DNA of 64,000 nt from Linderina pennispora (lineage: Eukaryota > Kickxellomycota > Kickxellomycetes > Kickxellales > Kickxellaceae). Location: assembly GCF_002104995.1 (NCBI RefSeq), contig NW_024468253.1, forward strand, positions 1,282,906-1,346,905. The letters are read 5' to 3'. A model generated the notes under the pieces. The model did no database searches. It was not told the origin of the DNA and worked only from the letters and a program-made list of their open reading frames with translations. Below are positions 11,762 through 47,012 of this stretch, in pieces; within the stretch, counting starts at the first letter, position 1, and every line of letters starts with the position of its first letter. The translations under genes and the position numbers were made by a program.

Positions 11762-13016
11762 TGCGATTATTCTGTTTGTTCTTAGATATGACAGAAAGTT
11801 GAAAGAGAGAATCCAGCACTTCGCATCAACACCTTCGATATGCCATCGTGCCCCAAAACTGAGGGAATTGCTGGTTCTGATCAGCGATCTGATCCGTTAA
11901 TCTATTCTTCATACTGAGGCTGACAGCCGAGCGGGTTTGGCTGGTACGCTTGGCAGCCATGATGAACGTTGTGCCCGCATGCAATGGACAGCATCCGTCT
12001 GTTGAGGGCAATTTTTTGAGGGTGGAAGCGATCTCCAAGTTGCAGGCTGAAGTGACCAGTACGGGATGGGCAGCCTGTGTATATCCAGTGAGTGGGCTAT
12101 GCTCACCAAACAGGCAGACATGTTCTATTTGTGGGCGGGAGTAGCAATAAATAATACTGACGATTTTAAAGATTTTGCGACAGATATGATGCGAAGAGGA
12201 CTTGAGAAGTGTTAGAGAAGACGGCATGTTTTAATTAGGTGAGACTATTCAAATCCTAAGCTAATCAAAATATGAAATGTGCATATATCTACATAGCTCT
12301 GGTCAGTTCAACAAAGATATATGTAGAGGGCAGACATATTTACATAGTGAGGCATATGAAAGATACGTAAGAAAAGTCAGATACGCCAGATATATCGCAC
12401 ACAACAGGTATATATATGGATCTTAGGTGGAATGGCGCAACAGTATAAAAATGATGGCGCTCGTTTACCTAAGCCCTATACTAAGGCTCGTTCTCCCAAT
12501 AGCACTGTGCTCAATAATTTAAAAGATCTGCCTGTTTCCGAACAATAGCGCTGTAGAGTGCGAATGTCCCAAGGCCACCCAGTTTGGAATATAAGTATGA
12601 ATTGCGTTTACCCATGATTAAACATGGAGATATGTCGCTAGTCGCCCATCTTAATAACAGCAGCAAGTCAGGGCCTCGAGCAATTCAATTATCGCCACTT
12701 TCCACAAGACTAAAGGCCAATGGCATAGAGTCCCACCAGCACCTGGTTTTACGGAAACAGCCACTTGCGGTCAGTAGATAGCACCTGTTTGACTGCGGAT
12801 TTTATCCACGGTCTATCACTGGTCGAGATATAAGGTTCAAGGACTTGTAAATTCCTATTCGATACTAGAATTGCTCTGCTCGCGATGCGAGCAGAGCTGC
12901 TAGTCAGCATGGGTTGACACGTCGATAAGAGCATCACGGCGAACCGGTCATTTGAACGTGTCGGATGGTTGTTGGTGCAATGTCGATCATGGACATCTCC
13001 CATCTTGGTGGTCTGC
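11762..13016. other. Gene-poor AT-rich region between RPL35 and the Fanzor gene
   Basis: No complete gene. On the minus strand an ATG at about 11960 begins MAAKRTSQT, which loosely recalls the start of ribosomal protein L30, but similarity fades within 20 codons and no downstream exon is seen. From 12230 to 12560 the sequence is AT-rich with repeated ATATAT/TACATA words. A strong hairpin lies at 12873-12897 (listed separately). Confidence 0.4.
12873..12897 (-). repeat. Perfect 11-bp inverted repeat with 3-nt loop, 120 nt downstream of Fanzor stop
   Basis: Arms GCTCTGCTCGC and GCGAGCAGAGC are perfectly complementary around a 3-nt loop. It lies about 120 nt past the stop of the minus-strand Fanzor gene, inside what would be its 3' untranslated region. 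TnpB and Fanzor guide (omega) RNAs are derived from the 3' end of, or just beyond, the nuclease gene and are strongly structured, so this is a candidate omega-RNA stem. A terminator or a transposon-end hairpin is also possible. Confidence 0.6.
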
Positions 13017-14763
13017 TCAGCGTAGGCGCTTCAGCGCTGGCTCGCTGCTGCTGGCAGCAGAACCGCCTGCTGCTGCACCCCTCTTGCGCGGCCTCTTTGT
13101 TGCAGGGGTGGTGCCAGAAGCATCGGCAGAAATGGCCGTAGAGCGACGGAACCGTTCAGGGATACTGCCTGAATCACAGAGTGACTGGAAAATGAGTCTG
13201 AAGTTTAGAACTGCTGCGAGATCGCGGTTCAAGATCCAAGACGAATAGGCTCGCCTGTATTGTGCCATGGCCCGCTTACATGACTCGCTTGTACAGCGGA
13301 GAAGGCCATGGCACTTCACAGCTGGGTTCTTCGATCTCTGGTAGGGCCGCGGGTTGGGAACATGCCGGAATGTCTGCAGCGACCTTTCGCAGCAGAACGG
13401 GCACATAGACGATGTCCGGAATTCGTCGATCAGATAGACCTCAAAGCTATGGTGCTTGAACTTGTCGCGCCATCCCTTGCCACGAATCGGCGCATGGTGT
13501 CGGGCCATCGGCGCACTCCAATTGCCCATGATCAGCACTGGGTCTGGACCGAACTTGCTCCGGAGTTTCGCGGCAAGCCTGTGGTCTGCACGGGCCTGGT
13601 TCATGAATGAATCAAGGCGCAGCTTGCGGTGAAGCGGGTACACCTTGGGACTGGTCCTGACACCTGGACGGGCCTTCCAGCGCCTCTGGTGCTGCTTGTT
13701 TGACTTAGTGGGCTGCTGCTCTGGTAACCTTCGCGCTGTCATCGTGTTGGCATAAAACGGTGCTAGGACACACCGCACAGATGCACGGGCAGCAACGTAG
13801 GCACGGAATTTTGCTGGGCTAAGGGTCCGGCAGCAGTGCTTGGAAAGCTCTGCCTCTGCTCTGCGGACAGCATCTTCTGGGACTTGATCCTTTGTAGCCC
13901 AGTGAATCCTGTCATAGTCGTGCAGCTTGAGCTCCTTATTGCGCTGCTGTCGTGTGTAGCGGTAGAGCATCTTTTCACCCTCTTTCCCATTGCTGCTATT
14001 TTCGTGCATCATGTATAGCAAATCGCCACGACCTGGATCGATGAATACACAGCGGCCTTTCAGATTCTGCAGCTCTGGCTGTGGGATCTGGTGGATATAG
14101 CGACAGTCAGTTATAGTATTGCCTCCCACAGCACCACCTCCTGCAACATCGCCTCCCACAGCATCAGCATCTACTGTACCATCAGCCTTAGATACCTTGT
14201 CTTATAACAAAATGCATATCGTTACACCATCTGTTGTCACCATTATGTAGAATTTTCTATCACCATGCGCCTTAAATGGCTTTGATGTTAGATCTGCAAC
14301 CCGGCTCCACACATCCCACACAGATTGTGTGATCCCTTGGACACATTGCTCATTGTACTGTGCAGTGTGTTTTGCGGCTGCGAATATCAATCAATTTGGC
14401 CAGAATCCGCTGTAGGCAAGTGCCATAGTGCAACACAATGCTGTTCTTGTATGCTGTCATCAACTCGGTATCCACGTATGTTGCTACTTGATTCATGTTG
14501 TGTACGCCATGTAGCTCGATATCGCCATTATGCAATAGATAATCATAAATGTGATATCTAACTACATCACCGAAATCTGCGCTCAACAGTTCTGACATGT
14601 CTTTCCGGTTGACAAAATCCTTGGCAGACATGGCCGTCTTCGCCTTCAGGTTGTGATAAATAAATAAATAAATGGAATGAAAGAATCCCTTTTTCACAAA
14701 TGTTGCAGGGTCAAAGGCATCATTGTCAGCTAGTTGATGGAGTAGTATCCATCGTGCAAGCAT
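13017..14763 (-). pseudogene. Fanzor (eukaryotic TnpB-like RNA-guided nuclease), degraded
   Basis: Homologue of OMEGA-family nucleases carried by eukaryotic transposons. N-terminal part (14763-14350): helical segment TAYKNSIVLHYGTCLQRILA, typical of fungal Fanzors. Middle part: TDGVTICILL, resembling the 'TDGVSVS' block. C-terminal part: RuvC-I Asp in CVFIDPGRGD (about 14030-14045), LIMGNWSAP, then IDEFRTSSMCPFC with CPFC...CTSESC forming a zinc-binding TNB-like module, and RuvC-III NRDLAAVLNF (about 13205-13235). The tail KRPRKR...KRLR looks like a nuclear localisation signal. Total about 590 residues. Two breaks: a one-base frame change at about 14375-14395, and an in-frame TAA at 14204-14202 between ICILL and DKVSKADG, which no plausible intron removes. 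It is a single copy here with no transposase beside it. It is probably inactive unless the breaks are sequence errors. Confidence 0.85.
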
Positions 14764-15999
14764 GTATGTATGCTCTTTGATGATATTGACACTGTATACA
14801 AATCACTCTAGGCGGGGCAACATAGAATCACAGAAGCCAATACCACCAAGTGATGCCTTTATGACAGTAGTGCTGCGGGTAATATTCATTTGAGAAATTC
14901 AATAGGCAAGTAAGAGAAATGATGCTGTTCAGTTTTGCTTTATTGCGTATGCATAGCATTAAGAATTTTTTATTAAAAATGATCTGGCTTGCATGGTTCT
15001 TGGGGCCCTTAGCACTGATACAGTCTCTTGAATCAGTCTATACAGACTGGGTCCATTGTGGCCCAAATACTACTGCTTACGCATGTTCATAAGACAAATT
15101 AATTTATAAAACAAACCCACAAATATTGCATGACCGCTAGAAGAGCTATATGGCCTCATTCAATAGGTGCTCATAAACAAATATCCTAAGAGTGTTGCGC
15201 AGCCGGTGATGACTACCATGATGACACCATGGAAGTTATTAGGCTGACCGACAATGAGAGCAGCTCTTGCGCTGAACCAATGGAGATATCCAGTGGAGAC
15301 CTGTGACCACTACAATAGCAACTTGTCACCCTGGTTTCACCGATGAGGTCAGATGCCGCACAAGATCAAAAAGTGTTTACAGAGCAAGTCACTCAAACCC
15401 GTGTTGAAGCTTAAGAGTTTTGTTTTTTAACCAATTAAATAATTTCTAGCGGACAGTCGGATACGTTTAAACTGTAAAATCTTATATATAGGTAAAGATC
15501 CTTCAGGAACAATGGCCACATTCGAGTGATTCCGGCAAGGTGCGATATTTATCCACAGTCCTCTATCTTCTGCCCCCTCTCCCAAATTCCCACACTATTT
15601 TCTTAATTATTTTGTAGTTCTAACAGTATTTATTTTATTCAAGCATGCACTGGCGTTTTTGGGTTTTGGCATTTTGGACTCTTATTGTAACTTGTGTGGC
15701 ACTTTTCTCTGATTCCGCCACAACACCCGTGGGCTTTAAATCATAGCGTATGGCTACTGAACCCCTATAGTTATAAATTTAAGGGATCCTATATGTCTTT
15801 GACTACATGCTTGCTAATAATAGGTGGTACTTTGAAAAAGCCTAACATTTTGCAACCACACATTTTCCATCCTTGGCCAGCCTACTGATTCGCGATTATC
15901 TAAGCCAGCACAATAGCCAGCTGATAAGATTCTTTGCACTCACACTCAGTGAGCTAGTGATTTGCATTGATACTTGAGCACGGCTTGTATGGAAACAGT
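14764..15999. other. Gene-poor region upstream of the Fanzor gene
   Basis: No convincing gene on either strand; only short open frames with no recognisable motif. It may contain the left end of the Fanzor-bearing element, but I could not see terminal inverted repeats or a target-site duplication. Confidence 0.4.
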
Positions 16000-16473: not shown

Positions 16474-16922
16474 TCATTTTCGTCAATATATTGTGTTGGC
16501 ATTTGGGGTCCGGAATCCCCCTACGCCACAGTAGACAAGGCCGAAACGCATACGTACAAATGCCCAGACAGACGACCAGCCTTCCTTCTTCCCCTCAGTC
16601 ATTTTTGAGAAGTTATTTTTTTTTCCATATATTCGATATCCACTCATTCCCCAAGTTAACATATTGCCTTAACGGTATAGCAGGTATGTTCGAATGCTAG
16701 TACGTTAGCACTATAGACAGTGTTGATAATCAAAAACCTCGCTGAATTGCAGTAACATCAGTTTAACCATTGCTTCCTTTTCGCTCGGTTTACTTGTGCT
16801 CAGAACTAGATGCCTATGTTATGAATATCAGGATCGAAAATGGAAGGAGACGAGAAAAGAAAGAAAAAATAATACACTACCTATAGCTAGGACAAAACTA
16901 CAAATGGTAGAAACCATAAAGC

Positions 16923-33802: not shown

Positions 33803-36800
33803 ATGGGCGATTCAACACCACCGCCGCCAGACGCATCGGCAGCCGACACCCAGAAACCGCCAGGCACTGGCTCCACCAACGGCGATGCCTCCGCGCCAGC
33901 AGCGAAGCTGACGTCTGACACACTGAAGCCCGGCGACGTGGTTACTGAGCAGTTTCTTATGCGCCTAGCCAAGCTGGAGAAGTACGAGCACAAGCTGGCC
34001 GAAGGTTGCACGCGTTTATCGCAACCTGAACACTGCGCGCAAGGCCATTGAGGTGGTGCTGAAGAAGCTGACGCCTGTCCAGAGCATCGCTGACGTCGAC
34101 GAGCTCGAGGCGCATCTATCTAACCTGAACATGAAATCCCAGTACGCTGGGGAGCAGATTGGTGCCCTGACAGAACTCGACAAAGGTAAGCGAACTGGTG
34201 GTCGATGGGTCTGGCGAGGGTCAGAGTACCAGCACACGACTAACACACGGCCCCTGCGACTGTAGTCAACCGGACAAAGATCAGCGACCTCGAGTCCAAG
34301 TTGGCCAGCCTGCAGAGTGCTGACGAATGAGCGACAGAGGCTGGCTAAGGAGCTCGACCAGATCACAAAGGAGCGCAAGGTTGTCGAAGGTCAGCTCGAG
34401 CGTAGCAACCAGAAGCTCAAGATCGACATTCGAGGCTCTTAAATCCAAGCAGGCTGAGCTAGAGACCCAAGGGCAGACCGCTGATGCCTTGGCAGAGAAG
34501 CTGTGTGGCCTGATTGGTAATGAAGCTGAAGACCTGACCGCAAACGAGAATCTGGCAACGCTGCGGGCACTGCTTGTTGAAAAGTGCGGCCTACCTGAGG
34601 GATTTGCCAGTGCTAGCGAGCTTGAAGCGGCCAAGAAGGATGCTGAAGAAATCGGTGCCCGACTGGAAGAGGCCAAGAAAACGCAGGATTCGCTCGAGCT
34701 GGATCTGGCCAAGGCCAAAGAGCAGTACCACCAGCTTGGCGAGGAGAAGGACAAGGCAGTCAGCGACCTGAATGCTACCCTCCAGGCCAAGGATGATGCG
34801 GTCCAGGCAGGCCGAATCCAAAGCAAACGAATTGTCAGGCCAGATTGAGTCTCTGAAGAGCGATCACGACACAAAGGCGAAGGCTGTGGAGGAGCTGAGC
34901 CAAAAGCTTGAAGCCGAAGCTCGGGCGAAGCATGAGGCTGAGGAGCAGGCCGCAAAGCTGTCTGGCGAGATTGCGGCACTTGAGGCAAAGGCCGATGCGC
35001 CGCCGCCATCACCTCCGGTGGCTGACGCATCTGCTACCACCGATCCCCTGACAATAGAACGCGTGGAGAGCATCATTAATGCGGCATTGGCGCATAACCT
35101 TGCGGCCAAGGCGTCTCATGGCGCTGATCCGAACCATTCTCCTCATCACCAGCCGCAACAGCAGCAAGGTGGGGGTGGCAGCAAGAAGAAGGGCAAGGGC
35201 AAGAGAAAGGCCAGCAAGAGCGTGTCGGTGGTCCCTTCGGCGGCTACAGCCGAGCCCAGTGGGAGCACCGGACCCTGTCCTGGTCACCAAGGAGGAGATC
35301 GACCGGCTGATAGGGCTTGTTGAATCTGCTGGCATCAAGGCGCAGCCCAGAGAGGCTTCAGCTGCAGAACCAGCGGTGGTCCATGACGATACCAAGCTGG
35401 TGGAGCTGCAGAAGACAATCGACGACCTCTCATTGCAACTCGACGAGGCTCGCAAGGCGGAAAAGGCTGCCAACGACGCAAGCATTGCACAGGCGGAAAA
35501 GCTCCAGACGGAAATAAACCACCTCGAAGAGTCGCTCAAGGCAGCTGAGATCGAGCGCAATGGTCTGCAGGAGCAGCTGAGTGCGAAAGGAGACCGAGAT
35601 GCGCCAGTTGGTGGGCAAGCTGGAGAAGCAGCTGACCTGATGTCGAAGGGCAGGCACAGGCAGCCAAGGAAAAGCAGGCGGCAAGGATCGATGAAGCTAA
35701 ACACGGCGCTGAATGATGCGCAGGCGAATATGGATGCTCTGTCAAAGAAGCATACAGACGAGGCCGAGCTGCAGACCAAGGGAGGCCTGAGGCCATGACA
35801 AGCAAGCTGGAAGCTGGCAGGAGAAGCTGGCCAGCGAGGTTCCTACGCTGAAAACCAAATGCGATGAGGTTCGTGCCGCAGCGACAAAGCTTGAAGGCGA
35901 GCTACGCGAACACAAGGCGAAGGCTGGAGGAGGCTGAGTCGGCGCTGAAGAAGGCGAACAGCAACTTCAAGGACGAGCGGTCTCGTTTAGCATCGAGCTT
36001 GGCTAAGGCGCAGGGCAACAACGCTCGGCTTGAGGGCCAGCAGCAGGATCTGCAGTCCAAACTGGCCAAGGCAGTCTGGTGAACGCGCCCAGGAGAAGCA
36101 GCGTGCGGATTCTGCCTGAGTCATCGCTAGAGCAGGCGCGCACCAGCATGGCCAAGGCCCGCCAGGACGCCAGTACTGCCGCCCGCCAGATCGCCGACAA
36201 GGACAAGCAGATTGCTGAGATCCAAGGCAAGCTGGCCGAGCTCGAAGAGCATGTGCGTACTGTTGACGATGATCTGGCCAACAGCCGCGAGCTGTTCAGC
36301 GAGAAGAGCCGTGTGTTGGCGCAGACCACCTCGCAGCTGCAGGAAGCACAGTATGCGCTGGAGAAGGCGAAGGCGTGCGAACAAGGCAGCTGCTGGAGAA
36401 TGCAGCAAAGGAGCTTGAGTCTGCTGCGCGAAGCATTGGCTGAGGCGCGCCAGCAGGCCAAGGAACAGGCGTCGAGAGACCAGGCGGAGATCGGCAAGCT
36501 GCGCGCTCAGCTGGGCACATTCGACCAGCAGGCCAAGCAGGCCAGCCAGGTAGAGCGCCTGGAGGCAGAACAGGCTGAGCGCATGGCCGAGTTGGAGACG
36601 CTGCGCAGCAACCTCCAGCGTTCTGATGAGCAGCAGGCTGCGACTCCAGGTCGAAGTGGACCGGCTACGTGACATTGAAAAGGATCTCAAATCGTCCAAG
36701 GAGCAGCTCGAGCGGGTCACCGACGAGCGCAAGCTGTCGGAGCAGCGCTGGAAGCGGGTCCATCCGTGATCTGAAGGAGGAGGTGCGCCGGCTGCACCGG

Positions 36801-37427
36801 GAGCGCCAACTGCTTGTTGCTCAGTCGTCGCCGGGTGCGTCCACTGCCACTTCGCCGATGCCCCCGAACTTCGCCGCAGAAGCAGGGTGTCAATGCGAGC
36901 TCGTCGTCACCGGGTAGCCGGTCCAACTCACTGACCATGGCTTCGGTGTCGTCGCTGCTGCGGGCGGCCACGGGCAATGCTGCTGCCTCCGGAAACAGCC
37001 CCTTGCCCGGCATTCCTCGGCGTGCCTCAGCCCAGACTGCGACACCAGCAGCGACTCAGCAAGACCCACGCAAGGCAATTAGCCCCCATTTGGATGTCGA
37101 GGCGGCGCCGGTGGATTCACATCCGCCAGGAGCAGCCGCTGCATGTATCCGAGTCAGCCCCGCCGCCAAACATGGCTAACCACAGGACTCGAGCCAAACA
37201 TCAGGCGAGAAGCCCACATCCGCTCAGCCAGCACGGCTGGCAGCTCGTCAGGCTATAGCGATGATAGCCAGATGGAGTCGACTGTCAACACTGAGTATTT
37301 GCGCAATGTGCTGTTCCGGTTCTTCAACGACAAGGACCGGCGGTCGCAGCTGGTGCCTGTTCTGTCGATGCTTCTCAACTGTAGCACTGAGGACATCAGG
37401 CACATACAGTCACTATTGCTCAAGTAA
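33803..37427 (+). CDS. GRIP-domain golgin, long coiled coil, frame-broken
   Basis: Peripheral trans-Golgi tether. The start MGDSTPPPPDASAADTQKPP leads into about 1,000 residues of coiled coil (for example KLEKYEHKLA, ARKAIEVVLKKLTPVQSIAD). It ends in a GRIP domain, NTEYLRNVLFRFFNDKDRRS followed by QLVPVLSMLLNCS, which in other golgins binds ARL1-GTP. One standard intron is visible, 34186-34265 (GTAAGC...CTGTAG), joining DK to VNRTK. Elsewhere about fifteen one-base frame changes are needed (for example near 34003, 34329, 34433, 34812, 35274, 35590), nearly all with the sign of one extra base. A Ser/Pro-rich linker lies before the GRIP domain. It is closest in layout to yeast IMH1 or animal golgin-245, but orthology is not established. 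Confidence 0.82.
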
Positions 37428-42559: not shown

Positions 42560-43433
42560 ACGGGCTGCTTAATGATCTCTTCTTTCCAGAGTTTGTTGAT
42601 ACTCTGAAATACAACTTCAGGTTTATACAGGTACAACTCTTTGCTGAGATAGGACCGAGGGAGGCTCCCTGTTCACTGCAATTCGCAGGCATGAACAACC
42701 AAACACATGCCAAAACAACCAACTAAATGTTCAGCGGTTAACTAATCGACATCCAGTGAATAGGACAAAAGCAGTGTACTGAGTGGCGGCGAAACACGAA
42801 GTTGAAGATACATCTAGCACTCTAATTGCTATGGTGATATAGACAACACCATATGCATATGGTGGCTAGTATCATGACAGCACATTTGAACTTGACAACC
42901 GAATTATATCATTTATAGGCTGTAGTTCAAATTGAACATATGCTGCAGAGCTGTCAAATAATTGCGATTGTTGTCACGCAGGATGTGCCACTACCATTAA
43001 CGCTTGGCCACTGTCTCGGGTCCATGTACTAAGCAGTGTATCTCGGATGTCTTTGTTGCGTTTGTGGCCGAGCAATCCCCGCTGTTGCTAGACCCTGCTG
43101 AAGCCGAATTGGCTGGCAGCTGAGCATTAGCTCCGGCACTTCTCCGGTGCACAATGGCGCATCACATGAAGTGTATCTTGATTCTGCCATTAGTGGGTGG
43201 CTACCTCAAGAGCTGGGAGGCCATTCAACTGTCTTTTCTGGCCTATACGCCTCATTTGCATAATGTACGGTGTAGTGCGTAGCATTGTATCCAGCACCCA
43301 GCGTGTGATTCCTGCGCATGCCTGAAGTGCATTGGCTATTTAAACACCCTTCCACGGTAGACACAACCACACCCTTGCCTTCCAACATTACTGATTTTTT
43401 ACACATTATTGGTATACCATTTCATACTCTACT
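42560..43433. other. Intergenic region upstream of the P450-reductase gene
   Basis: About 870 bp without a gene. An 18-bp perfect palindrome lies at 42847-42864 (listed separately), and a near-palindrome GTTCAAATTGAAC near 42927. A TATA-like TATTTAAA lies about 100 nt before the ATG at 43434, at about 43338. Confidence 0.45.
42847..42864. promoter_or_regulatory. 18-bp perfect palindrome, possible regulator site
   Basis: CACCATATGCATATGGTG reads the same on both strands. It lies about 570 bp upstream of the P450-reductase ATG in otherwise unstructured AT-rich sequence. Symmetry of this length suits a dimeric DNA-binding protein, but chance is not excluded. Confidence 0.3.
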
Positions 43434-46400
43434 ATGCTCTCATCGTGCCCTGTTAGCCATGAGCTGTCGTCTTTATGCAACGGCAAGGATGGCAATTCCA
43501 AAGTCGGGTGCCACTTTGTCATCGTTGTTGAGAAAGGACAACAGCCAGACAAGGACGGGTTTATCGTCTCAGTCTCTCCAGGTGATACGAATTTAGCGAT
43601 GCTCCGCGCCAATATTGCCCAACGCTCAACCGGAATTACCATGCTTCCCGAGGCGGTTGCATTTGAGGACGAGGAAGGCAACGAAGTCGTGTCAATCGGC
43701 CAGGTTCAACGAGCGAGAGTTTTGTATCTCACCACACCTATTGCGGGATACGAGGCTCCAATGGCTAGAGGTTACCCTGTTTTGGGTATTACACCCATGG
43801 TTATGAGTGACCCGCGCCAGCAGTTCGCTGCTCTTTTCGACAAGTATGGCGATACATTTTCTTACTACCTACTTGGAGTGAAAGCGTGTGTCACTTGCGA
43901 TCTGGCGGTCACCAATGCGGCTATCAATGACAGTGAATATTTCATCAAATCGATGGGCTATCCATCGTCTGAGCTGAAGGAGCTGGGTGGTAATGGGCTG
44001 ATTACTTCGTCGTCGGATGACCCGGACTGGAAACTGGCACACCGTCTGCTTGTTCCTGCCTTCTCGGCTAGCGCTATGAAGGTTTACGGCCACAAGATGA
44101 CAGAGATCTCTGAGCAGGCATGCGAGTGGCTCGACAGCCATATTGGCGAGCCAATTGAGATATTCAACTTTGCTACCAGCGTTACATTCCAGATGATTGC
44201 CAGGACTGGGTTTGGCTTTGACTTCAACCTGCTCGACCCAGCTGGCACTGGTCAGCACCCGTTCACGGAGGGCATGGACTATTGTCTGAAGCAGATAAGC
44301 GCTCGTTTTTTCCGTACTCCGCTCTGGAAATATCTGCCCATCGCTGCCAACCGCATGTTTACCGAGCACATGCGCAACATGCGGGCCACGGTACAACAGG
44401 TTATCGATGAGCGCCGCACCTCGCCAGATGCTGCTAGTATGAAGAAAGACCTGCTTGGGTTTATGCTTAATGCTCGTGCACCAGACGAAGACGGCAACCT
44501 AGTTGGACTCAGCGACCGACTTATCCAGGAGGAGATTATCACATTTGGAATAGCAGGCACGGAAACCAGCAGCTCGACTATATCTTTCGCTTTGCAGCTC
44601 CTGGACAAGCACCGCGATGTTCAGCATCGGGCGCTACAGGAGCTCGCTGCCGCCGGGATCACCGCTGACACGTCGCCGACAATCCAGCAGACTAACAAGC
44701 TGGCCTACTTGACGCAGATTATCAACGAGACACTCCGCCTGTTTCCACCAGTGCCAGGGTTACTGCGCGAGTGTCAGAAAGACTGTATCCTGCCTGGCGG
44801 CTTCATTATCCGCAAAGGTGACCACCTACGCATTAACATATGGAGTCTTCAGAGGAACCCCAAACTATTCCCGAATCCGACCGTGTTTGACCCAGACCGC
44901 TTTTCGCCTGAGAATATCAAGAACATCAAGCCCGGCTCGTGGGTCCCGTTTGTCTCTGGTAGTCGTGCCTGTATTGGCCGCCAATTTGCTATGATGGAGC
45001 TGCGGGCTGTGCTAGCTCGCTTGTTGTCGAGGTACGAGTTTCATGTTGTGGGAGACAGTGAACTCCAGTATTGGCCTACCAAGCCTACTACAAGTCCGAT
45101 GGATCTCTTCATGACTGTCCAGAAGCGCACAAGCCTTCCAGATGCCGACACTCTGATGGCGACAGGCGCTCCTGGTCCCAATGATAATCACGCCGTCGAG
45201 AATCTCGTTCTGCGTCCGCTTACTCACACGGTCTCTGCTGACAAGCTGCCGCGTACGTTCATCGTGTATGGATCGAACATGGGCACCAGCGAGGACTATG
45301 CGACGCAGATGACCGAGCAGCTGAAGCGCATGGGATTTGCTGACATTACTCTTGTGTCGCTGAATGACTGGGACTTTGGTTCAATGAAGTCTGCGGATGG
45401 CAGACGCTCTCTGGTTGTGGCTATTACCAGTACGTACAACGGAATGCCACCCGACAACGCCAGAAACTTTGCCAAGCTGCTCGACAAGGAGACCCGCGCT
45501 GACATCCTCAAGGACGTCGATTTTGTACTGTTTGGCTGCGGAAACTCGCTCTGGCATACGTTCCTGAAGTTCCCGCGCCATCTGTACCAGCGTCTTGATG
45601 AGCTTGGTGCCACGCCGCTGACTGAGTTTACGGCAGGAGATTCCAACGACGAACTCGACGACGAGTTCATGAAGTGGTCACTCCAGGTCGGAATGATTCT
45701 GACTGATCACTACGGCTCCAGTGTTGATGCCTACATTGATGCTGTCACGGACAAGTCGCTGCCGTACTCGCTAAAGTACGTTGACAACACCCCTGCTGCC
45801 CCGTTCAGACTGTCGCCGGAGAACGCATCAGTCAAAGTCAACCGCGAGTTGCAGGACGTCGAAAGGAGCGGTCGCAGCACTCGGCATATCGAGATCACTC
45901 TGGATGACACATCAGATATCTCGTACATGACTGGCGACCACCTCAATATCTACCCAGTCAACGCGCCAGATGTTGTGCGTGAGGTTTCTGCGATCCTAGA
46001 GCTCGATCTGGATGTGGTATTCGAGCTAGAGCAGGTTTCGGACGCTTCGCGCTTTGCCCATTCTGCTGCAGCAGTTATCCATGGCCGCGCATGCACCGTC
46101 GCTGATGCCCTCCAATATGTCTGTGACTGGAAGGAAGCACCTTCACGCGAGCTGGTTGTTGCGTTGAGCGAGACTTCCGGCAATAAGCCTGCCTATGATT
46201 TGCTGCGCAAGGCTGCTGAAGACGCCAACACGCTAGGAAAGCAGTCGGCTGGCTGGAGTGCATTCACAGCACAGAACCGCACTGTTCTGGATGTGCTGCG
46301 CACGTATGCACCCCTGGTGCGCCAGATTCCATTTGCAACGCTGCTTCACTTTGTGTCGGCCATGGATCCCCGGCGGTACTCGATCGCCAGCTGCCAGTCG

Positions 46401-47012
46401 GTTGTTGGCAATGAAGTCCACATCTCAGCTGCCATTGTCAACGATACCGTCAATGGCCGCTCCTACGGTGGTCTGGCAACCGAGTATCTGGCATCGTTGG
46501 AGGCGGGTGCTCGTGTGTCTGTGTCGCATCTCCCAGCGCAAGAAGCCTTCCACCTGCCACCTCCATCGGATGTACCTGTGGTGTTTGTCGGCGCCGGTAC
46601 TGGAATTGCTCCGTTCCGCGGATTCCTGCAGGAGATGAAACATGCCGGCATTGGTGGTGCAACGATGTACTTTGGCTGCCGCAGCCCCGAGTACGACTAC
46701 CTATACAAGGATGAACTCGAGCAGTATATCCAAGACGGCATGCTGTCCAAGCTGCAGACAGCATTCTCGCGGGTCGGTGATGAGCGCAAGTATGTGCAGC
46801 ACCACGTTTCCCAGGACAGTGCGAAGATCTGGTCGCATCTGCAGAATAGCGGTCGCATCTACGTCTGTGGATCGGCTGATAAACTGGGCAAGAGTATGAC
46901 CACCGCCATGGTTCGGATCTTTGAAGAGCATGGCGGCCTATCTGCCGACGAGGCAAGCACGTACCTTTCCAACCTGATCTCTGATGGTCGCTACGCCCAG
47001 GATATCTGGTAA
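43434..47012 (+). CDS. Self-sufficient cytochrome P450-reductase fusion, CYP505/P450-BM3 type, with N-terminal extension
   Basis: Intact 1,192-residue fusion of a P450 heme domain and a diflavin reductase. Relatives hydroxylate fatty acids at subterminal carbons using NADPH. P450 part (about 110-570): I-helix GIAGTETSSSTISFAL, ExxR as ETLR, heme loop FVSGSRACIG (Cys about 513). FMN domain from about 605 (FIVYGSNMGTSEDYA); FAD motif RRYSIASC near 980; NADPH motif VGAGTGIAPFRGF near 1050; the terminal GRYAQDIW matches the GRYAKDVW end of P450-BM3. No membrane anchor, so probably soluble. The first ~105 residues are extra compared with BM3-type enzymes. They include a possible beta-grasp module (VGCHFVIVVEKG; FIVSVSPGDTNLAMLRANIA; VAFEDEEGNEV; RARVLYLTTP). 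Confidence 0.93.
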   Translation: MLSSCPVSHELSSLCNGKDGNSKVGCHFVIVVEKGQQPDKDGFIVSVSPGDTNLAMLRANIAQRSTGITMLPEAVAFEDEEGNEVVSIGQVQRARVLYLTTPIAGYEAPMARGYPVLGITPMVMSDPRQQFAALFDKYGDTFSYYLLGVKACVTCDLAVTNAAINDSEYFIKSMGYPSSELKELGGNGLITSSSDDPDWKLAHRLLVPAFSASAMKVYGHKMTEISEQACEWLDSHIGEPIEIFNFATSVTFQMIARTGFGFDFNLLDPAGTGQHPFTEGMDYCLKQISARFFRTPLWKYLPIAANRMFTEHMRNMRATVQQVIDERRTSPDAASMKKDLLGFMLNARAPDEDGNLVGLSDRLIQEEIITFGIAGTETSSSTISFALQLLDKHRDVQHRALQELAAAGITADTSPTIQQTNKLAYLTQIINETLRLFPPVPGLLRECQKDCILPGGFIIRKGDHLRINIWSLQRNPKLFPNPTVFDPDRFSPENIKNIKPGSWVPFVSGSRACIGRQFAMMELRAVLARLLSRYEFHVVGDSELQYWPTKPTTSPMDLFMTVQKRTSLPDADTLMATGAPGPNDNHAVENLVLRPLTHTVSADKLPRTFIVYGSNMGTSEDYATQMTEQLKRMGFADITLVSLNDWDFGSMKSADGRRSLVVAITSTYNGMPPDNARNFAKLLDKETRADILKDVDFVLFGCGNSLWHTFLKFPRHLYQRLDELGATPLTEFTAGDSNDELDDEFMKWSLQVGMILTDHYGSSVDAYIDAVTDKSLPYSLKYVDNTPAAPFRLSPENASVKVNRELQDVERSGRSTRHIEITLDDTSDISYMTGDHLNIYPVNAPDVVREVSAILELDLDVVFELEQVSDASRFAHSAAAVIHGRACTVADALQYVCDWKEAPSRELVVALSETSGNKPAYDLLRKAAEDANTLGKQSAGWSAFTAQNRTVLDVLRTYAPLVRQIPFATLLHFVSAMDPRRYSIASCQSVVGNEVHISAAIVNDTVNGRSYGGLATEYLASLEAGARVSVSHLPAQEAFHLPPPSDVPVVFVGAGTGIAPFRGFLQEMKHAGIGGATMYFGCRSPEYDYLYKDELEQYIQDGMLSKLQTAFSRVGDERKYVQHHVSQDSAKIWSHLQNSGRIYVCGSADKLGKSMTTAMVRIFEEHGGLSADEASTYLSNLISDGRYAQDIW

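Follow-up and report, generated by a model that had tools for sequence, protein, structure and literature searches.

The fungus Linderina pennispora carries, in the window analysed here (64,000 nucleotides of contig NW_024468253.1), a dead copy of a high-copy Helitron that bears a Fanzor1 gene. We propose that this family is mobilised by a Rep-helicase, in trans or as part of a joint unit, and that its Fanzor would perform guided cutting of A-TA sites; the probability of this reading as a whole is about 0.75. The coordinates of the relevant features are collected in Table 1.

Table 1. Features of the Fanzor-bearing element in the window.
Feature	Positions	Strand	Basis
Whole Fanzor-bearing Helitron, 5'-TCTTTACC...TTCTAG-3'	12865..15498	-	Ends in common with 29 other loci; end sequences
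5' terminus, first ~75 bp shared with the Rep-helicase Helitron	15399..15498	-	40 scored genome matches; L071 sequence
First 28 codons of the Fanzor gene, then in-frame TGA (14803-14805)	14803..14889	-	Translation; start common to intact sisters
Fanzor N-terminal part, 150 codons	14350..14802	-	Open frame; PpFz1 match
Joint of the ~0.6-kb internal deletion; frame shifted	14335..14342	-	Blastn blocks overlap in comparisons with most sister loci
Middle part, 62 codons with TTDGVT, ending at in-frame TAA (14202-14204)	14202..14390	-	Open frame
C-terminal part, 394 codons, RuvC core and zinc ribbon, TGA end	13017..14201	-	Open frame; PpFz1/SpuFz1 match
RuvC-I Asp of FIDPGRGD	14037..14039	-	Position; aligned to SpuFz1 D383
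RuvC-II Glu, alternative position, in IDEFRTS	13422..13424	-	Position; Ealt spacing; aligned to SpuFz1 E541
Zinc ribbon, Cys codons 13401, 13392, 13293, 13278 (lowest base of each)	13278..13403	-	Positions; weak Pfam TNB match
RuvC-III Asp of NRDLAAV	13221..13223	-	Position; aligned to SpuFz1 D606
85-nt non-coding block, candidate omega-RNA scaffold	12878..12962	-	Diversity among copies
Helitron 3' subterminal hairpin	12873..12897	-	Fold of the window end

The sequence-only reading had placed three minus-strand pieces of a degraded Fanzor gene at positions 13017-14763. The pieces are there, and their matches to the Fanzors PpFz1 and SpuFz1 rule chance far out; the start of the gene, an ATG at 14887-14889, lies upstream of the range first given. 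The in-frame TAA and the frame change that had been described were both recovered, and the count of two breaks rises to three with a further in-frame TGA behind the first 28 codons. The frame change was left by a ~0.6-kb deletion, whose size was derived by hand from coordinates relative to sister copies including L018, which has the same downstream flank as the window copy. In sister copies, the 8 bp at the deletion joint can be aligned to either side of the gap, which corresponds to microhomology. The gene had been taken for either a recent fossil or an active gene with sequence errors. The window copy is dead; sequence errors are unlikely because the breaks include the ~0.6-kb deletion and a second stop.

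Sequence comparison with solved structures matched the 394-codon piece to PpFz1 (E 1.6e-53) and SpuFz1 (E 2.6e-27) and the 150-codon piece to PpFz1 (E 1.9e-4). Alone, the 62-codon piece gave no significant match to the sequences of the Fanzor structures (best E 0.4). The stretch of the intact sister copy L010 that matches this piece aligns to PpFz1, and the TDG in the piece is a motif described for Fanzor1. The sequences FIDPGRGD, IDEFRTSSMCPFC, and NRDLAAVLNF can be read directly in the window, as reported from the letters, and the four Cys codons of the CxxC zinc module were located and aligned to PpFz1 and SpuFz1, the Pfam TNB match remaining below the cut-off. The relocation proposed for the RuvC-II Glu was borne out: the Glu of IDEFRTS lies six residues before the first CxxC (E-FRTSSM-CPFC), which is the published Fanzor Ealt position, and DPG at RuvC-I occurs together with Ealt in the window Fanzor. 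The SpuFz1 residue numbers D383, E541, and D606 in Table 1 are from PMC10432273, with the alignment offset counted by hand.

A profile search had been suggested as a check, and its outcome was divided. Generic Pfam and NCBIfam TnpB models scored below their curated cut-offs, and an intact sister copy had no Pfam match at E 0.01. Since the generic models were below cut-off, the solved Fanzor1 structures were used for comparison, and these were matched by sequence. The second check, on the fold, was positive, as most of a model of the intact sister L010 could be matched to the PpFz1 and SpuFz1 structures, with the overall REC-WED-RuvC-TNB arrangement. The sequence-only reading was to be abandoned if TnpB/Fanzor matches or a RuvC core were lacking; both are present, and the Fanzor reading is supported. 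Judged from homology and predicted fold, the window gene is a Fanzor1. A protein databank search returned 135 relatives at E ≤ 0.001; the closest among the matches listed is from Dichotomocladium (46% identity), and most of those listed are from Coemansia.

The gene had also been described as standing alone. This is wrong at the level of the element because the Fanzor gene lies inside a Helitron: sharp ends near 15499 and 12863 are common to 30 loci (the window and 29 others) and delimit in the window an element of 2.63 kb, between a host A at 15499 and a host TA at 12864-12863 (A-element-TA). No Rep-helicase is present in the window element, which makes it a non-autonomous Helitron with the Fanzor gene as cargo. 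We consider it extremely improbable that a stand-alone single Fanzor gene, fossil or active with sequencing errors, accounts for the locus. The scan of window frames, covering 9 of the 34 long ones, detected no transposase next to the gene, as such a gene would have it, but the ends common to 30 loci already refute this explanation, and the ~0.6-kb deletion, the two stops, and the existence of intact sister copies also speak against it.

Both ends of the element are of the canonical Helitron1 type, and its host neighbours are A on one side and TA on the other. Helitron ends have been defined by 5'-TC, a 3' hairpin, and CTRR-3' (PMC3627910), and the window element and its copies show all three, starting with TCTTTACC and ending in a hairpin and CTAG. 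The 3'-end pattern, with at most one mismatch, had 188 matches in the genome versus 2 for a reversed control, and 98 of the 100 exact places listed remained exact when TA was added.

Helitrons insert between A and T (A^T) without target duplication. This was also found here, for 40 left flanks, 55 right flanks, and 6 loci with an empty counterpart. TA opens 54 of the 55 distinct 25-bp right flanks, with T on the right in 54 of 55, and A ends 33 of the 40 distinct left flanks; in these counts differing allelic copies count twice, the exceptions include joints with an abutting Rep-helicase element, and the left-flank figure is without 10 loci whose 5' tip failed to align from base 1. As a background, the base after AT is an A in 19% of cases in the window and in 30% of cases in the flanks.

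Several further observations were made around the ends. Arrays of the hexamer TCTTTA, of up to at least 7 units, directly precede the 5' tip at L017, L032, L037, L047, L051, L054, L074, L075, and other loci, and ATCTTTA or TTCTTTA ends 10 of the 40 distinct left flanks; the arrays look like slippage or re-use of the 5' tip. The right flanks of L006 and L026 are the 5' end of another copy, corresponding to insertion into TATATA of a sister element. L016 comprises two element 3' ends in opposite orientation ~2.5 kb apart, and the left flank of L035 is an inverted element 3' end. A minus-strand frame at window positions 16483-16668, with GWSSVWAFVRMRFGL, recurs in the flanks of L098 and L047 and represents another dispersed repeat near the element. 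Elsewhere in the window, positions 34001-37000 display a strong AT skew (~0.27-0.30), unlike the remainder, and positions 43395-47012 (plus strand) encode a cytochrome P450 fused in a single frame with its own flavin reductase.

The Helitron_like_N domain was detected at 13 places in the genome, 7 of them with a longer C-terminal domain part. One element, L071, has Rep-domain and PIF1-helicase frames, and its 5' end is, as compared by eye, the same ~75 bp as in the Fanzor element. The 3' end of the L071 element was found 8 times, and the 5' end of a Fanzor element directly adjoins it in all 8 cases, with CTAG immediately followed by TCTTTACC at five joints and a tip shorter by a few bases at three. 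Thus, the Rep-helicase and Fanzor parts travel together or descend from one tandem. Given either origin, Fanzor-only copies would start at the inner 5' end. An intact Rep-helicase gene was not demonstrated in the genome, the L071 copy containing one TGA. On contig C68 (198243-198650), a lower-scoring Helitron_like_N domain within a 1989-codon frame probably belongs to a second Helitron family.

In keeping with the source species, one window protein is 96% identical, over 82% of its length, to a Linderina pennispora protein, the next match having 53% identity. The C-terminal piece was searched against the genome (26,172,285 bases in 222 contigs), yielding at least 108 match rows, most at 85-93% identity, with 105 of 338 candidates scored and some loci split over several rows. 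Intact copies, which the sequence-only reading had proposed to look for, do exist: 12 of 30 loci keep frames of 798-887 codons, and 9 of these 12 also keep the N-terminal start. The dN/dS ratio was ~0.34 over 66 pairs, as compared to 0.73 in a neutral simulation, for which the lowest of 100 runs was 0.40. The intact sister Fanzor genes are under purifying selection. Copies at 62% protein identity, for which conservation of only the 3' ends was considered, are actually frame-shifted and have ~91-94% DNA identity. A 5'-end profile was set aside because some of its rows diverge inside. The flanks of copies located on large contigs recur on several small contigs, diverging by a few per cent, as would be expected of alternative haplotypes. 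Of six 3' ends that have no Fanzor match nearby, four (L141, L144, L145, and L146) belong to internally deleted elements. The deletion joint is identical in L141, L144, and L145, so that one deletion derivative has multiplied.

Downstream of the gene, the 85-nt non-coding block has a diversity of 0.045 versus 0.108 in the 67 columns upstream (47 distinct 3' ends; column permutation p 0.00025), one row, L035, 50% identical to the majority, having been dropped to leave 47. The lengths reported for omega-RNAs are 75 nt for PpFz1, 90 nt for SpuFz1, and 150 nt for GtFz1 (PMC11423790). On the basis of its conservation, the block is a candidate omega-RNA scaffold. It might instead serve Helitron replication or termination, an explanation that we regard as doubtful. 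The block does extend into the Helitron 3' hairpin; covariation analysis found zero compensatory pairs in the three stems tried, a 7-bp stem having 10 broken cells, and Rfam gave no match. Against a role confined to the Helitron, conservation is also seen when just the 54 columns preceding the hairpin region are considered (column permutation p 0.0027), the last bases up to CTAG-TA are variable (diversity 0.116), and the length of the block is near the 75-90 nt of the PpFz1 and SpuFz1 omega-RNAs. RNAalifold proposed a fold different from the stems tried. The window copy ends fold better than shuffles (z -3.9 and -3.4); neither of the L009 ends does so (z -0.5 for the 145-nt end, and z -1.1).

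Empty counterparts of the insertions were sought in the same genome with the joined flanks of 30 copies and 25 single flanks. The best 40 candidates were scored for each, so that missing empty sites mean little. An element-free counterpart with both flanks readable was obtained at 6 loci; the counterparts of L067, L068, L105, L106, and L133 look allelic, and L107-L110 form a paralogous set. None of the 6 loci displays a target duplication. At the right joint, the host sequence continues with TA at five of them and with TC in L106. The joint triplet reads ATA in L067, L068, L105, L133, L108, and L109, GTA in L107 and L110, and ATC in L106; the empty site is simply ATA at 4 of the 6 loci, the exceptions being L106 and the L107-L110 set. 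The left joints do not all show the precise insertion expected of a Helitron: with these joints placed by hand, 2-11 bp of the empty site are gone from the filled allele at 4 of the 6 loci (7 in L067, 11 in L068, 8 in L105, and 2 in L107) and none at L106 and L133. This difference may instead reflect later change of the empty allele. Excision footprints are not favoured as a cause of the joint differences since variation at this spot is also seen among the four paralogous empty sites (L107-L110). Two candidates, L132 as the empty site for L118 and the L134 left-flank matches for L034, were not counted, the second flank being absent, and the flank of L095 is a dispersed repeat. Comparison of L140 with L133 revealed that the 37 aligned bases directly to the right of the insertion are inverted between the filled and empty alleles.

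The bases next to the insertion provided a lead rather than a result, as the following test was conceived after seeing the data and the joints were placed by hand. Among the first eight target bases, 8 of 40 are changed between empty and filled alleles (5 allelic loci) versus 2 of 48 in 6 filled-filled pairs (p 0.02, or p 0.09 minus two fully identical control pairs). When empty alleles were compared to the filled flank at four loci, 7 of 32 positions were changed in the first eight bases versus 13 of 368 further out (p 0.0004). These counts do not include the L107-L110 set (0, 1, 1, and 1 changes). Since the cut made by Fanzor1 enzymes lies ~14-21 bases away from the motif (PMC10432273), simple scars of cutting do not account for the changes, which may have arisen as escape changes or as by-products of insertion.

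In the mechanism that we propose, the Rep-helicase would mobilise the Fanzor elements, either in trans or with both parts joined in one unit. Each copy would transcribe an omega-RNA from its own 3' end, with flanking host DNA as the guide. The scaffold would take in the two fixed flank bases TA, and the guide would start after them. The Fanzor would then recognise the empty A-TA site, with ATA as the target motif, and cut it, and the cut would favour copying of the element into the empty allele. The window copy has lost its protein, yet its 3' end could still supply a guide. Cut-driven conversion of the empty allele is a published proposal for TnpB, and an analogous role of Fanzors carried by Helitrons has been suggested (PMC10432273). 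Inclusion of a fixed flank base has a precedent in ISXfa1, an IS607 element whose TnpB takes a fixed right-flank base into the guide-RNA scaffold (PMC10711439), as our model requires of TA. ISXfa1 differs in being a bacterial serine-recombinase element, and its extension to Helitrons, made here by analogy, is conditional. If the scaffold includes the fixed TA in the way that the ISXfa1 TnpB takes one base, the guide sequence follows ATA in an empty A-TA site. The target motif of PpFz1 is 5'-ATN-3' next to the target (PMC11423790); by analogy with this enzyme, the A-TA insertion site and the ATA of the empty sites fit the ATN motif. We tentatively suggest that the Helitron target and the Fanzor motif might be one and the same, insertion at A^TA leaving a re-formed ATA to mark the empty allele, and the Fanzor driving the Helitron into such alleles. 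The changed first eight bases of the empty alleles are in keeping with a shared target.

Alternatively, the Fanzor could be a passenger, useless at the insertion site, with the Rep-helicase alone moving the Helitron and TA reflecting a plain target preference. We hold this to be a real possibility while leaning against it. Deletion derivatives that lack most of the Fanzor gene have spread too (L141, L144, and L145, with one common internal deletion), although these copies retain the 3' end and could use a Fanzor in trans. The target preference was determined on the Fanzor elements themselves and may be a trait of Helitrons, but its A-TA agrees with the ATN motif of PpFz1, and a useless protein is at odds with purifying selection (dN/dS below the neutral simulation).

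Helitrons carrying a Fanzor1 as cargo were published in 2013, for Chlamydomonas Helitron2 elements (PMC3627910). Like the Linderina element, CRe-1, 2, and 3 of Chlamydomonas reinhardtii are non-autonomous Helitrons with a Fanzor1, have termini in common with an autonomous Helitron, and include many truncated or internally deleted copies (PMC3627910). They differ in being Helitron2 elements: they have a 5' hairpin, insert behind TTTT, are often flanked by 7-19 bp target duplications, and carry genes of 5 or 10 exons, whereas the Linderina element has Helitron1-type ends, an A^TA site, no duplication seen, and one open frame. Neither TTTT insertion nor 7-19 bp duplications occurred in the flanks read. 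Spu-1 of Spizellomyces punctatus (PMC10432273) resembles the Linderina family by its many Fanzor1 copies, its gene-less 'ghost' elements that keep the 3' end, and its 80-90 nt RNA region downstream of the stop. It differs by its inverted repeats and by the lack of a transposase in the published description, in contrast to the Helitron ends and Rep-helicase relative in Linderina. The closest characterised enzyme is PpFz1 (Fanzor1 of Parasitella parasitica; PDB 9cf0-9cf3; PMC11423790), in comparison to which the Linderina protein, known here from its gene, has long low-complexity inserts.

In the passages of the literature covered, we met neither a detailed account of a Helitron1-type Fanzor carrier nor any connection of a Fanzor motif with the target of a Helitron, and novelty is to that extent provisional. 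The name Linderina is absent from the texts of PMC3627910, PMC10432273, and PMC10711439, and none of the titles listed for Linderina pennispora papers mentions Fanzor. The 2023 Nature paper (PMC10432273) states that the biological role of Fanzors is unknown and, in its passages on Helitrons, only draws a parallel with the cut-and-copy model of TnpB. The Linderina elements form a family that is young and includes intact genes. It has a Rep-helicase partner, its filled and empty alleles can be compared within one assembly, and its target fits the motif of the closest characterised enzyme. The homing idea is therefore directly testable in one non-pathogenic fungus, and the sister copies, some of them intact, could reveal what Fanzors do for the elements that carry them.
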